Of a DNA stretch of 64,000 nt, positions 3,705 through 49,531 are shown piece by piece. The translations under genes and the position numbers were made by a program. The notes below the pieces were generated by a model, which saw only the letters and a list, made by a program, of their open reading frames with translations, ran no database searches and was not told the origin of the DNA. This stretch comes from Candidatus Bathyarchaeota archaeon. Lineage in GTDB: Archaea; Thermoproteota; Bathyarchaeia; Bathyarchaeales; Bathycorpusculaceae. The number at the start of each line of letters is the position of its first letter. Positions within the stretch are counted from its first letter, which is position 1. The stretch lies in NCBI GenBank assembly GCA_026014725.1, contig JAOZHV010000026.1, forward strand, positions 186,001-250,000. Direction: 5' to 3'.

Positions 3705-3895
3705 TCTTATTTTTCCTCCATTGTTGTTTTTTGCTTGTGGTTCAGCCTTTCGGCCACATCCCTGCGGACGAGTTTGTCCGCCTGCATTTTCAGATGAAAG
3801 ATGTGTTGAATGAAATAAACCTTTCCAGTACAATAGTTCTGTTATTTGTTTATAACACCAATAAACTACAAACTGGCGCTATGGTTGTAAGAAGC

Positions 3896-3937
3896 TTGTT
3901 CCTCTACCGCTACCCCCATCCCCCTATAAAAAGCAGT
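3896..3937 (+). repeat. Dispersed intergenic element, module A (copy 1)
   Basis: This stretch reads TTGTT-CCTCTACCGCTACC, then CCCATCCCCCTATAAAAAGC. It matches the reverse strand of 14271-14316 at about 32 of 39 positions by eye and belongs with the copies at 18912, 34861 and 49161. The constant core is a run of C followed by TATWWAAAG, which looks like an archaeal TATA box. It lies in the gap between the L15e and PadR genes, about 210 bp ahead of the PadR start. No B module follows here. Confidence 0.6.
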
Positions 3938-4099
3938 CAAATTTTTATGTTTTTTAGTTAGTTATGTAAACGCTGTCATAAGCAAGTGACTGGCAGATTT
4001 TGATTCTGCTGATGAAAAGAGGTTTACTTTCCGTTTACTTTCTGTTATGGTTAAAACGGGCATTGTTGTGCGCCTTTTGTCGTTTTATTTTGCATCATG

Positions 4100-14182: not shown

Positions 14183-14316
14183 ATATTTGCATCATATTAG
14201 GATATCCATGCAGAACCCTGAGGGTGGTAGGTTCTATTGGCGCTTTTTCAATCCCTTAGCATGCTGAAAAAACAGGCGCTTTAAATAGGTGGATAGGGGT
14301 AGCGACAGAGCAACAA
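14183..14316 (-). repeat. Composite A-B dispersed element (copy 2, inverted)
   Basis: Read on the minus strand, module A (14316 to 14271) is TTGTTGCTCTGTCGCTACC, CCTATCCACCTATTTAAAGC, and module B (14251 to 14183) begins TTGAAAAAGCGCCAATAG, ACCTACCACCC and continues to CCTAATATGATGC. The order, spacing and much of the sequence match 34861-34993 and, with an insertion, 49161-49423. It fills most of the gap between two genes and carries no open frame. It could encode a small RNA from its own TATA-like core or be a MITE-like remnant. Confidence 0.65.
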
Positions 14317-14473
14317 ATCTCGCGCATTTATATTATTTTAAGGTAAAGAAAAAACAAGGCTATAGCAATGGTTTTAGCTTAATGTCATGACCTTATTTGC
14401 ATTATATTCAGCATGAAAAAGCAATCATTTTAGTGCTTAAAAGCCCCTTTATAAATAGATGATGTTATATACT

Positions 14474-18900: not shown

Positions 18901-18911
18901 ACTATCCATTT

Positions 18912-18952
18912 TTGTTGCTCTGCCATAGACCTATCCCCCTATTTAAAGGCGG
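18912..18952 (+). repeat. Dispersed element, module A (copy 3)
   Basis: The sequence is TTGTTGCTCTGCCATAGACC followed by TATCCCCCTATTTAAAGGCGG, nearly identical to 34861-34901. It starts just after the HIT stop codon. No B module follows, although GGATTTTTCAA matches the next bases of the 34.9 kb copy. The TATTTAAAG core could serve as a promoter for whatever lies between here and 19460. Confidence 0.65.
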
Positions 18953-19012
18953 ATTTTTCAACATGTTTTGTGGACACAAAACCTTCAAAAGCACTCACTT
19001 TATAGGTTTAAT

Positions 19013-19039
19013 TTATCGAAACTCGGCGAACCTTATATA
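19013..19039 (-). repeat. TATATAAGGTTCG dispersed motif (copy 1)
   Basis: Read on the minus strand this is TATATAAGGTTCG, then CCGAGTTTCGATAA. Copies on the plus strand lie at 27210 and 28806. The shared upstream bases GCATG, TATA-like core and TTCGA tail suggest a conserved promoter or target site. It points toward module A at 18912, with no gene directly downstream on that strand. Confidence 0.55.
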
Positions 19040-19211
19040 TCCATGCGTCAGAGACAACGTATGGGTATTTTGCGCGAAGTTATGACGTGGATAATGGGTT
19101 GACCGTTAGGCTTTTTCAGTTAATTAGTGCTCATTTACAAGTTTTTAAATGTTGACTTTGTTGTTTTTCTCAAGTTTGCTTTTTGATTATTCATTGAATT
19201 GCTGCTTTTCT

Positions 19212-19914: not shown

Positions 19915-20078
19915 AGAAGCAGCTTGTAATTATGCGGGGCAATCGTCACAGGGCAAAGTTGGTTTTTGCAATAGCGTAAGTGGGTTTCCAGAAAGCATTA
20001 TACTAAAAACTCATTAAATATTTGAACGGATAATGTTAGAAAGACTGATGGCATTAAATCGTTTAGGGCTTTCAAAAA

Positions 20079-20104
20079 TGTGTTTGGTTGATGCTTTCGT
20101 ATAC
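20079..20104 (+). repeat. 26-nt GTATAC-ending dispersed motif (copy 1)
   Basis: TGTGTTTGGTTGATGC followed by TTTCGTATAC. The same 26-nt pattern, ungapped, occurs at 24038, 28877 and 31046 on the plus strand and at 24308-24333 on the minus strand. Here it lies 91 bp upstream of the nuclease gene start at 20196. Role unknown: upstream activating site, transcript end signal, or remnant of a mobile element end. Confidence 0.7.
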
Positions 20105-20195
20105 CATTTAAGAAGATTAACATATGAAATGGTCTTTTTGAGTATTGCTGGTAAATTTTTTGAGCCATTTATGCCAATTTATAGGAGAAGATTTC

Positions 20196-24063: not shown

Positions 24064-24307
24064 GACAAATTTGGTTGGTGAGAGTGGAGAGGGCTGGTGA
24101 CGATAACAATTATGAGTAATACTGATACAACGATAATCACCAATAACGGAACAACCAACATTCAATCACTCAAAATATCGCCAGTTTAGACTACATCAAG
24201 CACATCAAAACAACCGCTAACCCCCAAAGGCACGAACTAGAACGCCCTCAAAAACACCCAAAAACACATAAAAACGATTAAGAAGACAACACAAATCCGC
24301 AATCTCC

Positions 24308-24333
24308 GTATACAGAAGCATCAACAAAACACA
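24308..24333 (-). repeat. 26-nt GTATAC-ending dispersed motif (copy 3, inverted)
   Basis: On the minus strand: TGTGTTTTGTTGATGC followed by TTCTGTATAC. With the plus copy at 24038 it forms an inverted pair with the GTATAC ends pointing inward. The enclosed 244 bp have no gene. This could be a trace of a small element or two independent sites. Confidence 0.7.
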
Positions 24334-24653
24334 CTTTTGAAAAGCTCCCTGAGAAGGAAACCAAAAGAGCCACTTGCCCGATAACGACTTAATGCGCTCA
24401 ACAAAAAACCAAAGTTTCTCCAAAAATGCCAAAAACAAACTTGAGAGCTCGAAGGTTAACCGAAAAAACGGCATTTTGTTTCGCATGGAGATTTTCGACA
24501 GTACTTATATGAGGCTCCGATATTGCCCATTCCAAGTTCCTAAGAGACAGGCAAAAAAGCCCAATTTGAGGCGGTTTTGTACTTTTAAGCAATATTAGGG
24601 TGTTTAGTTTTGGATTCTGGAGTCAAAACTTCTGACAAATTTCAGATCAAATA

Positions 24654-26850: not shown

Positions 26851-27209
26851 CACACACGCGTTCCCGAGCAGTTTTTCGCTTATCGTGCAACAGAGAAATT
26901 TCTGAACCCATTCTTTTTAATGATTTAATTATAAATTCGTAAGTACTAATTTAATTTTTTAACTGTTAATTGTGAAAAATTACAATTCGAGCTAATTTCG
27001 CATGGCTTGAAATACGGAGTTCTTAACGCTTGGAAGCCAAAAACCGCAAAATGATGAGTTGGGAGCGTTGAAAACGTGTTGAAATACAATCAATAAAGGG
27101 GAGAAATGGGCGTCGGCACCTATTTTGTTAGCTTGCAGGGTTTCGCGAGATGAAAAAATCAGCAGTTTCTTCCCTCTGCAGTGTTTTTAGGTCTGTTGTG
27201 TTGCATGTA
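26851..27209. other. Intergenic stretch without a gene
   Basis: AT-rich near 26925-26990, then mixed sequence. I see no credible open frame, tRNA or repeat other than the TATATAAGGTTCG motif that ends it. A short frame from 27150 is probably noise. Confidence 0.5.
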
Positions 27210-27236
27210 TATATAAGGTTCGTTCGTCTTCGAGAA
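27210..27236 (+). repeat. TATATAAGGTTCG dispersed motif (copy 2)
   Basis: TATATAAGGTTCG followed by TTCGTCTTCGAGAA. It is preceded by GTTGCATGTA, close to the flanks of the other copies. It stands at the 3' end of the nicotinamidase gene and points into it, so a transcript started here would run antisense to that gene. Confidence 0.55.
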
Positions 27237-28371: not shown

Positions 28372-28805
28372 CCGTCAACACTTTTTTGTGAATAGATATT
28401 CTTTTAGCCAAAGCCCTGCACAGTCACCTGCTTTTTTCATCATGCGGTATTCGCTTTCCGTAGCGCTACAGAACAGCAAAACAATGGAGAAATTGCACTT
28501 ATTCTTTAACTTTCTTTTGTCAGTCATGGGCTTTTTTAACTTTTAAATGTAAAAAGTGAACATTCGATTATTTTTCGCTTTATATAAGCTACCAAAAAAC
28601 AAAATCGCATACAAAACACCATTAAAAAAGTTCGCTATAACGTCAAATAAGCGGACAATGCACAATAAGGAAGCAATAAACAGAGCTTAAACGAGCAAAA
28701 GAGAGCAAAGGCAGACTAAAAATACTCATGTATGACACATTAAACCTGTTTTGACCTTTTTTATGCGGTATGGAGGGCTTCAGTTGATTGTTAAGCGTGT
28801 ATGAA

Positions 28806-28832
28806 TATATAAGGTTCGTTAATTTTCGATAA
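28806..28832 (+). repeat. TATATAAGGTTCG dispersed motif (copy 3)
   Basis: TATATAAGGTTCG followed by TTAATTTTCGATAA. Compared with copy 1 (minus, 19013) it shares the TATA-like core, GGTTCG and the TTTCGATAA tail. It lies 150 bp upstream of nnr and just ahead of the 26-nt motif at 28877. Confidence 0.6.
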
Positions 28833-28876
28833 TTCAGTGCCTTTTAGCCTGCCAAAAAGTACAAAACAAGATTTTC

Positions 28877-28902
28877 TGTGTTTGGGCGATGCTTTTGTAT
28901 AC
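28877..28902 (+). repeat. 26-nt GTATAC-ending dispersed motif (copy 4)
   Basis: TGTGTTTGGGCGATGC followed by TTTTGTATAC. The nnr ATG is 54 bp further on, with a TATA-like CTTTAAAC at about 28922-28929 in between, so here the motif occupies an upstream promoter position. Confidence 0.7.
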
Positions 28903-28956
28903 ACAGCAAGGATAGGCTTATCTTTAAACCAAACACAATACTAATCAGGCGTCACT

Positions 28957-31042: not shown

Positions 31043-31045
31043 AAC

Positions 31046-31071
31046 TGTGTTTTGTTGATGCTTTTGTATAC
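31046..31071 (+). repeat. 26-nt GTATAC-ending dispersed motif (copy 5)
   Basis: TGTGTTTTGTTGATGC followed by TTTTGTATAC, starting 3 bp after the Tsr3 stop. The next gene (LysE-type) starts at 31140 and has a TATA-like CTTATAATT at about 31086-31094. The place fits either a transcript end of the previous unit or an upstream site of the next. Confidence 0.7.
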
Positions 31072-31139
31072 GGCATCATGAAACCCTTATAATTAACCAT
31101 GCAAAATGATGGTTAAGCGCAGTTATGGAGAATTGAAGT

Positions 31140-34804: not shown

Positions 34805-34860
34805 GCCTCAACCTTTTTCTTTTGCTTGAGAAAACAGCTAGCACTTGTGCTAAAAAGCTT

Positions 34861-35001
34861 TTATTGCTCTGCGGTAGACCTATCCCCCTATTTAAAGGCG
34901 GGATTTTCAAATGCTTTTTAGCTGAAAAAAGCGCCAATAGTGACCTACCCCCTATAGGTTTCTGCAATGAGTTTCTAATAGACGACAAATAGGTTGGTGA
35001 G
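34861..35001 (+). repeat. Composite A-B dispersed element (copy 4)
   Basis: Module A (34861-34901) reads TTATTGCTCTGCGGTAGACC, TATCCCCCTATTTAAAGGCGG. A short linker leads to module B (34921-34993): GCTGAAAAAAGCGCCAATAG, then ACCTACCCCCTATAGGT (ACCTA and TAGGT can pair), TTCTGCAATGAG, TTTCTAATAG. ACGACAAATAGGTTGGTGAG ends it, a tail also seen at 24062. This is the most compact copy and the best reference for the family. Confidence 0.7.
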
Positions 35002-35043: not shown

Positions 35044-36210
35044 TTATGTTATTGTTTGGTTCCAGTAGTATACTTTACTATAGTTTCCAAGCAATGCCTC
35101 GATATATTCGGGTTCGTCATAGAATATGTCTAATTTTGAATCGAATTTTGCGGTTAGAGTTACCACGTCGTTGTAGATTTTTGGCGATAACTCATCAGCA
35201 GGGAAAAAGCCCCAAATGTTGTCGGTGGGGCTACGAAAGCCAAATCCGTAATCCTTAGGTACGATGTAGGCGACTTCTGGGTGGCGGGAGCCAAAACTTT
35301 CAGGGTTGGTGTGCATCGTGTTCCAAAACCTCTCCAAGGCATCAAAGTGGTCATCAGTTAACGTGCCGTAATCTGTGACATGGGGGTAACTGAAAACAAT
35401 CGCGTACTTGGCTCCAGCACTGTAAGCCAACGCCAAATCAGCATAAAGCTCCTCACCGCTCTCAAGATAAGGCTCTTGCTCATACTTCCAAGTGACAATA
35501 ACACCCCAATCTTTATCAAACGCTCGTGCTGCGCCCCGGCACAAGGCGATATGGCGCTCTCTGCTCTCGTTGCCTACAAACTCGGCGAAAATTGTGGTGT
35601 ATTTGGCTTTGTAATCAAACCAGTATAGTGCGTAATCGGCAGTAAAAATTCTTGGCGCGAAATTAAGATAATAATCAGGAAAAACCGACAAATTACCGAC
35701 GTAAACTTCAGCAATTTGGCTGTAACCCCAGCTCGGCGCTATCACCGTATTATTAATCAGTCGTGTTTCGTCGTCAAGCTGGTTACCGCCTGGTTCATCA
35801 TACCTATAAACGCCCAAAAACTTGTCTCCATACTTCATGCTTGCCTCCGCTAACCACACTGAAGTATTATAATCGTACCTGTATAAGCTCGTAAACTGCA
35901 CAATAAGATTCAAATCGGCAGCAACCACGTAGTCAGAAGCCTCATCTAACGCTGTTTTGTTAAACGTCAAACCGCTCAAGCCAATGATAAAAAGGTTAGT
36001 GTAATCCTTAACCTTATCAACCAAAAGCTTCACTTCAGCAACATCATTGCCATGGTCACCATAAGCATATTCTACGCCCACATAGAACTCCCTAAGTGAC
36101 GCGCGTGAGCCCAAGAAATTAGCAGCAAAAAAAAGAGCCGCCACAACAAGCACAACAAGCACAATGCCAAATAAGATAACAAATTTACGGTTCAACAGGC
36201 TCACTTGCAT
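35044..36210 (-). CDS. Membrane-anchored extracellular protein, barrel-like (paralogue 1)
   Basis: The 388-residue protein has an N-terminal membrane helix (about 10-33) and a long extracytoplasmic domain. Motifs shared with the paralogue at 47440-48654 are YTNLFII/L, FLGVYRYDEPGG, DYALYWFDY, RGAARAFDKDWGVIVTWKY, GAKYAIVFSYP, HFDALERFW, PKDYGF, NIWGFFPADE and the ending VYYWNQT. Repeating beta-alpha units with acidic motifs such as DEP suggest a glycoside-hydrolase-like TIM barrel. No family name is certain. It stands near glycosyltransferases. Confidence 0.7.
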   Translation of the reverse strand: MQVSLLNRKFVILFGIVLVVLVVAALFFAANFLGSRASLREFYVGVEYAYGDHGNDVAEVKLLVDKVKDYTNLFIIGLSGLTFNKTALDEASDYVVAADLNLIVQFTSLYRYDYNTSVWLAEASMKYGDKFLGVYRYDEPGGNQLDDETRLINNTVIAPSWGYSQIAEVYVGNLSVFPDYYLNFAPRIFTADYALYWFDYKAKYTTIFAEFVGNESRERHIALCRGAARAFDKDWGVIVTWKYEQEPYLESGEELYADLALAYSAGAKYAIVFSYPHVTDYGTLTDDHFDALERFWNTMHTNPESFGSRHPEVAYIVPKDYGFGFRSPTDNIWGFFPADELSPKIYNDVVTLTAKFDSKLDIFYDEPEYIEALLGNYSKVYYWNQTIT

Positions 36211-47439: not shown

Positions 47440-48654
47440 TTAGAAGCTTGTTTGGTTCCAATAGTAAATTTTGGGATATTTGCCTTGTATGGGTAATGTT
47501 GCGTCTTCATAGATGATGTCTAAACGTGAACCGTATTGTTCCAGCAGTTTGTTTAGGTTTTCCCATATTAAGGCTGATTTCTCGTCTGGACCCCAAAAAC
47601 CCCAAATCTTGTCATCTTCATGTCTCATTGCCCAACCATAATCCTTAGGCAAGACCAGTACTGCTTGCGCTTTAACTGCGTTCGGAGTTGAGCGGGTTAT
47701 GTCTTGTGTCCAGAACTTTTCTAATGCATCAAAGTGCTCTTGTGTCATGGTGCCGTAAGGGTTGCCGGTAGCGTTATCGAAAGCTAAATCGAAGATTAGT
47801 ATGTATTTTGCTCCTGCGTTGTAGACCGTTTTCAATTGGTTGTAGATGTTTTCGCCTGTGTCTAAATATGGAGGTTCATAATACTTCCAAGTTATGATTG
47901 CACCCCAATCTTTGTTTTGCATGGTTGCTGCTCCGCGAATCTGTGCGATGTCTTGGTCTAGGCTATGATTCCACCCGACTTGCGCAAGAACAGTGTCGTA
48001 TCCTCCGAGATAGTCATACCAGAAGAGTGCGTAATCTGAAGTGAAAGTTCTTATCGTGTTATTTTTCAATTGGATATGTCCAGGATTATTTTCTACGAGA
48101 TGGTTAAACCATTTGGCTTCTCGTGTGTAGTTTTGTGGGTTTGTATTGTTTTCTTTTTGTAGTTCTTTGTAGATTTCTTTAAGGGTACCTGATAAGTGGT
48201 TCTTGTTCTGTTCAAAGAATTCTGTCCAATTATAATCCGTGTGAATACCTGCTGGTTCGTCATCAAAGTATGCGCCTAAGAACTTGTCGCCGTAAGCGCT
48301 CTTGCAGAAGTTGAAGAATTGCATGCGCCTACTCCAGTCAAATCTGTCCCATGAACCCATGTTCACTATAATGTTTAACCCTGCGTCTACTGCGTAGTCG
48401 CAGAGTTCTCGAGACGCGGTTTCGTTTAGGCTGATGCGGTTCACGCCTGAATCTAGAATAAAGAGGTTGGTGTATGCTTTTGTTTTGTCGATGATGAGTT
48501 TGGCTTGAGTTGTGCTGTTGCCTCCGTATGCAACTCCTACGTATACTGGGTCGCTTTGTTGTGGGTTGTTGCTTGTGTATGAAACGAGCAGGGAGGTTGA
48601 TGCTGCAAGTATGATGATAACTAGTGTTAATGTTAAGATGCGTGCCCGTTTCAT
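47440..48654 (-). CDS. Membrane-anchored extracellular protein, barrel-like (paralogue 2)
   Basis: The 404-residue protein has an N-terminal membrane helix (about 6-26) and an extracytoplasmic domain aligned throughout with the protein at 35044-36210: YTNLFIL, FLGAYFDDEPAG, DYALFWYDY, RGAATMQNKDWGAIITWKY, GAKYILIFDLA, HFDALEKFW, PKDYGW, KIWGFWGPDE and the ending IYYWNQT. It has an insertion near 130-170. A glycoside-hydrolase-like barrel is suspected; conserved acidic pairs (DDEP) are candidate catalytic residues. Confidence 0.7.
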   Translation of the reverse strand: MKRARILTLTLVIIILAASTSLLVSYTSNNPQQSDPVYVGVAYGGNSTTQAKLIIDKTKAYTNLFILDSGVNRISLNETASRELCDYAVDAGLNIIVNMGSWDRFDWSRRMQFFNFCKSAYGDKFLGAYFDDEPAGIHTDYNWTEFFEQNKNHLSGTLKEIYKELQKENNTNPQNYTREAKWFNHLVENNPGHIQLKNNTIRTFTSDYALFWYDYLGGYDTVLAQVGWNHSLDQDIAQIRGAATMQNKDWGAIITWKYYEPPYLDTGENIYNQLKTVYNAGAKYILIFDLAFDNATGNPYGTMTQEHFDALEKFWTQDITRSTPNAVKAQAVLVLPKDYGWAMRHEDDKIWGFWGPDEKSALIWENLNKLLEQYGSRLDIIYEDATLPIQGKYPKIYYWNQTSF

Positions 48655-49035: not shown

Positions 49036-49160
49036 AACGCTTTTTTTCTTATCAATAGTCTGTTGATAACGCGATTTTTTTCTATAGCCCCTTATAAATA
49101 CTAATAATTGGTGCTACGTGTGTGAAGGGTCAGTTGGGTAGGCGCTGTATATACGCAGCT

Positions 49161-49200
49161 TTGTTGCTCTGCCGCAGACCTACCCCCTATATAAAGCGGT
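49161..49200 (+). repeat. Dispersed element, module A (copy 5)
   Basis: TTGTTGCTCTGCCGCAGACC followed by TACCCCCTATATAAAGCGG. It is the upstream end of the longest composite element, which continues through a palindromic insert (49225-49338) to module B (49352). The TATATAAAG core again stands where a TATA box would. Confidence 0.7.
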
Positions 49201-49224: not shown

Positions 49225-49338
49225 TTTTACTACGACCATCAAGGAGCTAACTATCGCGGTACTTGGGAGTTTTACTACGACCAACCCATGAGAGCAACAG
49301 CAACCGCAATGGTCGTAGTAACGGATGGTCGCAGTAAA
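49225..49338. other. Nested inverted repeats able to form a long double hairpin
   Basis: TTTACTACGACCATC at 49226-49240 pairs with 49324-49338 (GATGGTCGCAGTAAA, 14 of 15), and TTACTACGACCA at 49272-49283 pairs exactly with TGGTCGTAGTAA at 49310-49321. The two stems nest, giving a two-storey hairpin of about 114 nt. It sits between modules A and B and contains no open frame. It suggests a structured RNA or a cruciform. Confidence 0.6.
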
Positions 49339-49351
49339 TCAACATGCTAAT

Positions 49352-49531
49352 GGCTTGAAAAAGCGCCAATAGCACCTACCCCCTATAGGTTTCTGCAATG
49401 AGTTTCTAATAGGCGGCAAATAGGCAACCTACCCCTCTATAGTTTCAACATAGAACCACGAATAGGCTCTAAATATGCTCACGTAACCTACTGCAGGATT
49501 CAACATAGAACCCTAACAGGAAACAAATATC
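49352..49531 (+). repeat. Module B (copy 5) with two degenerate tandem B-like units
   Basis: Module B at 49352-49423: GGCTTGAAAAAGCGCCAATAG in part, ACCTACCCCCTATAGGT, TTCTGCAATGAGTTTCTAATAG in part. It is followed by AACCTACCCCTCTATAG at 49427 and TAACCTACTGCAGG at 49484, each leading into TTCAACATAGAACC (49444-49457 and 49500-49513), a period of about 56 bp. The tail thus looks like tandem decay of the same unit. Confidence 0.6.

Follow-up and report, generated by a model that had tools for sequence, protein, structure and literature searches.

What is the composite repeat at 34.9 kb of the window (the whole stretch of 64,000 nt analysed here, G000:C26:186001-250000, from the genome of an uncultured archaeon of the Bathyarchaeia, 63 contigs and 2.56 Mb)? 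A sequence-only reading had placed five copies of a module A and three of a module B in the window, and each was found where that reading had put it (Table 1). The B box at 14.2 kb, however, is actually ACCTACCACCCTCAGGG. At 49 kb, A and B follow each other in the same orientation, as claimed, but a 113-nt inverted-repeat module (N) separates A from M-B. The 14-base A core by itself gave 9 matches against 5.9 expected, within chance; GAAAAAGCGCCAATAG (6 against 1.1) and ACCTACCCCCTATAGGT (3 against 0.07) were beyond it. The A-B unit belongs to a family of non-coding, modular DNA elements.

Table 1. Copies of the element in the window and modules of the 34.9-kb copy.
Feature	Position	Strand	Score or basis
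A-M-B element at 34.9 kb	34858..34997	+	R1 100.9 bits, R1 training sequence
A-M-B copy upstream of a TBP gene	14183..14319	-	R1 98.9 bits, R1 training sequence
A and partial M, 8 nt 3' of HIT-protein gene	18909..19009	+	R1 53 bits
A-only copy	3894..3954	+	R1 22.3 bits, E 1.2e-5
Module A, 49-kb composite	49158..49199	+	R1 20.1 bits
Module N, 49-kb composite: four TTTACTACGACCAT motifs, two direct then two inverted	49226..49338	.	
M-B, 49-kb composite	49338..49425	+	R1 71.7 bits
Second B unit in tandem, diverged, 49-kb composite	49426..49480	+	R1 25.6 bits
Module A, 34.9-kb copy: TTGCTCTGC leader, C-box CCTATCCCCC, TATA-like TATTTAAAG	34861..34898	+	Alignment A1, octamer survey
Module M, 34.9-kb copy (TTTTCAA...GCGCCAATAG)	34908..34941	+	Alignment A1; consensus in five genomes
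Module B, 34.9-kb copy: C-box CCTACCCCCTATAGG, ATAG-type words ~11 bp apart	34943..34993	+	Autocorrelation peak, lag 11

A genome-wide search bore out the proposal of a recurring family. R1, a sequence-only profile of 24 copies, gave at least 150 significant matches in G000, merged to about 110 loci (a lower bound) or approximately one per 20 kb, and blastn with the 34.9-kb copy gave 47 matches. The R1 scores of the 34.9- and 14.2-kb copies, both members of the training set, are not independent; those of the other window copies are. Wherever a locus held several R1 matches, all were on one strand, and the spacing of the loci is slightly more regular than expected by chance (CV 0.74, against 0.89 at random; an evenness reached by 2.4% of random sets). 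The claim that all copies are intergenic held for nearly all: with a simple in-house gene prediction, 2 of 100 own-genome loci overlapped a predicted gene by over 30%, compared to 65% of positions drawn at random from these stretches. Orientation relative to the flanking genes is mixed. A fixed promoter or terminator role for the neighbours was rejected, since all gene orientations occur around the element.

Copies are mosaics of modules whose order, read at many loci, is fixed: P (TTTTTTCTATAGCCCCC-TATA), A (TTTGTTGCTCTGC, C-box, TATA-like box), an optional N, M (TTTTCAACATGC...GCGCCAATAG), one to four B, and C (further 11-bp repeats, then TTGGTGAGC), with names and borders set by eye. The TATA-like core noted earlier in A was confirmed: of 73 own-genome copies, 57 have the octamer TATTTAAA, TATATAAA or TATAAAAA; the fourth combination, TATTAAAA, is rare (Fisher p 0.0015, for copies that are not independent and to which common descent may contribute). 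The spacing from this box to M is mostly 9–11 nt (alignment A1, by eye). As a sequence-level candidate, A could possibly act as a promoter. Module B is a phased array with a self-match peak at lag 11: seven extended copies carry ATAG words at approximately 2, 13, 24, 35, 46 and 57, some copies being shifted by one, and direct repeats ~11 bp apart are also a feature of ParR/parC-like arrays. Module N (~112–113 nt) holds four TTTACTACGACCAT motifs and inverted repeats. Two N variants retain both stems via double changes, and pairing is canonical in 430/438 cells on the minus strand vs 402/438 on the plus strand. In a variant with TTTACTACGTACAT motifs (L104 from 1563, L004 from 1593), all four motif copies have changed together. 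Downstream of carB in G006 (L253), N is present without A-M-B, so it may be a separate repeat family.

The first of the two explanations offered earlier, a family of structured small-RNA genes, would make A the promoter, place the start in M, ~23 nt downstream of that TATA-like box, and yield an RNA consisting of M-B or N-M-B. The few forms of the TATA-like box with the rare TATTAAAA combination, the narrow box-to-M spacing and the paired module N are what such genes would display. However, RNAalifold found no pairs in the A-M-B alignment on either strand, leaving the unit without a consensus fold, and single A-M-B copies fold about like shuffles (mean z ~ -0.4). The ACCTA/TAGGT stem suggested for B likewise lacks support, many copies carrying ACCTACCCCTCTATAGT, which breaks it. 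The better pairing of N is on the minus strand, the reverse of the proposed transcript; no T-run conserved downstream of B was noticed; and within the window Rfam matched only 5S, tRNA and an eL15 leader, away from the element loci. We consider a small-RNA gene family decidedly unlikely.

Where a genome carrying the B core is named, it is a Candidatus Bathyarchaeota MAG. Within the same genus, R1 listed at least about 60–85 matches in each of six other genomes and 0–17 in the remaining genomes searched; a blast search found at least 14 in G029, outside that R1 search. Element-rich and element-poor genomes are interleaved in a single-gene TBP tree, which is a weak tree. The element is absent from many species and so cannot be essential to the genus. 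Histone was rejected as a factor behind this patchiness, being present in all 32 of 32 genomes.

Positions are nonetheless frequently common to species: of 47 nearby cross-species pairs, 40 agree in both gene end and orientation of the element (p 7e-18 against 25%, the pairs not being fully independent). Among 22 such pairs, mean element identity was 0.77 vs 0.46 at four-fold sites, the former biased upward because only loci detected in both species entered; flank identity was 0.66–0.67 vs 0.64 for shuffled sequence. Orthology does not make copies more alike (0.739 for orthologous vs 0.747 for non-orthologous copies, p 0.45), and every genome compared has a consensus of its own. G011 and G018 carry 77 and 41 exact copies, respectively, of their own C-box, CCTCCCCTCCCTT, some at the same gene ends, whereas the reversed control matched nowhere; the scarcity of the element in G011 is partly apparent, as the A consensus differs there. 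The 34.9-kb element itself has a G011 counterpart at the same gene end (L067). Downstream of carB and tmk, the element is present in some species, and the lineage-specific A is reversed in G011. At tmk, G005, G017 and G003 have a short element-free gap before the same flanking gene, and G006 has a decayed copy. The TBP locus was discarded as an empty-site comparison because its upstream sequence differs between species. On the 3' side of an archaeal histone gene, the element occurs in opposite orientations in G000 (L028, C22:125777-125861) and G029 (L122).

Repeats between genes are commonly dismissed as mobile debris. In this family, species whose four-fold sites are nearly randomised still have element positions in common, yet orthologous copies are no closer than others. 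Such a combination calls for inter-locus copying or for a DNA-binding protein that co-evolves with the sites, and both would shed light on how chromosomes are organised in Bathyarchaeia. Common positions with a sequence that tracks lineage rather than locus point to concerted change, by inter-locus copying or by selection through a co-evolving DNA-binding factor. Neutral remains of one ancestral burst, retained by inheritance alone, would leave orthologous and non-orthologous copies equally similar and would account for the decayed copy at tmk in G006. This explanation is already disfavoured and in our view very improbable, since a consensus per lineage over dozens of loci needs an ongoing force, and the elements are 77% identical where four-fold sites of neighbouring genes are at 46% (with the ascertainment bias given above).

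An old non-autonomous mobile repeat, a MITE- or BIME-like mosaic that spread in bursts per lineage to preferred sites such as gene ends, is a more serious contender. It would accommodate the patchy presence in the genus, the element-free gaps at tmk, the mosaic modules with N on its own at carB in G006, the lineage-specific subfamilies and the flips at some sites, and common positions would be explained as insertions passed down or as sites used more than once. Of the MITE-like element proposed as the other main possibility, the classic form is not borne out: positions are often common between species, and the A-M-B ends in alignment A1 have no terminal inverted repeats, inverted repeats being confined to N. 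No target duplication was seen, the filled and empty tmk sites being too diverged for placing junctions. The best pair among 24 A-M-B copies is 93% identical (mean 72%), so recent near-identical copies were not found. Mobilisation of the IS200/RAYT type was rejected because the Y1 transposase (PF01797), the only transposase family searched, is absent from G000, G007, G013, G018 and G022; phages and plasmids had no match to the element, nor did viral contigs searched with two exact patterns. Together with the agreement in gene end and orientation in most cross-species pairs, these results make an old mobile repeat possible but somewhat doubtful.

Helical-turn phasing without RNA structure favours a protein-bound DNA site. 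We tentatively prefer a reading in which the element is one of many protein-docking sites across the chromosome that retain their places while their sequence becomes homogenised, and hold it to be quite possible, if short of an even chance. The element would work as double-stranded DNA bound by proteins, A providing a TATA-like site, next to it a C-rich box and a lineage-specific ~20-bp stretch, and B four to six ATAG-type sites spaced by one helical turn (11 bp), which would align bound proteins on one face of the helix. It might mark gene ends or the borders of chromosome domains, acting for instance as an anchor or road-block. That proteins bind the element, that selection is the cause, and what the element does are all inferred. 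The number and slightly even spacing of the loci, their avoidance of genes, the lag-11 phasing without a fold, the common gene ends, the identity in excess of four-fold sites, the per-genome consensus and the C-box copies of G011 and G018 are consistent with docking sites. Against them stand the many species without the element, mixed orientation relative to genes, flips between species (L028/L122; A at carB and tmk in G011) and the upward bias of the identity comparison; lineage homogeneity is equally explained by inter-locus copying, and histone, the only candidate binding protein checked, is in all 32 genomes. The fuller version, in which ~100 composite docking sites at fixed gene ends form an archaeal boundary or segregation system whose recognition sequence is rewritten per lineage with its DNA-binding protein, appears unlikely, although less so than the small-RNA genes.

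Several known systems resemble the element in part. REP/BIME mosaics are intergenic, modular, ordered and multicopy, as it is, but have a palindromic unit and a RAYT (Y1) transposase, whereas the element core is non-palindromic, forms no hairpin, and occurs with no Y1/RAYT in G000 and four other rich genomes. MITEs are likewise short, non-coding, patchy and present in many copies, with terminal inverted repeats and target-site duplication, neither of which was found for A-M-B; only N is inverted. ParR/parC-type iteron arrays share direct repeats about one helical turn apart; they form a plasmid centromere beside partition genes, while the element occupies ~110 chromosomal loci and no partner gene was found. 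The STAR elements of staphylococci are interspersed intergenic direct repeats at tens of loci, patchy in number between species and stable in location within lineages, with no neighbourhood common to two species (PMC3532100). The element is similar in its intergenic direct repeats, tens of loci, patchy numbers and locations stable within a lineage, but its neighbourhoods are often common to species, and its sequence and modules appear unrelated. In Sulfolobales, a segregation protein binds tens of dispersed chromosomal SegB sites, each a 13-bp palindrome, mostly inside genes (PMC12284271). The archaeal setting and dispersal are alike; the element, in contrast, is 90–140 bp long and intergenic with direct 11-bp phasing. 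A literature search found no description of such repeats in Bathyarchaeia.

The surroundings of the element hold further repeats. Genes 35044-36210 (-) and 47440-48654 (-) are apparently related, have no Pfam match and contain the direct repeats D4, D7, D8 and D9; the former adjoins the 34.9-kb element, and its G011 homolog also has an element there. A second short repeat, TTGTTGATGCTTTTGTATACGG, lies at 20078-20129, 24306-24337 (-), 28876-28927 and 31045-31096 of the window; its core has five genome-wide matches with up to one mismatch, and similar sequence adjoins elements in G013 and G025. A third, ATATATAAGGTTCGTT...TTCGA with a TATA-like run, occurs at 19012-19046 (-), 27202-27236 and 28798-28832.
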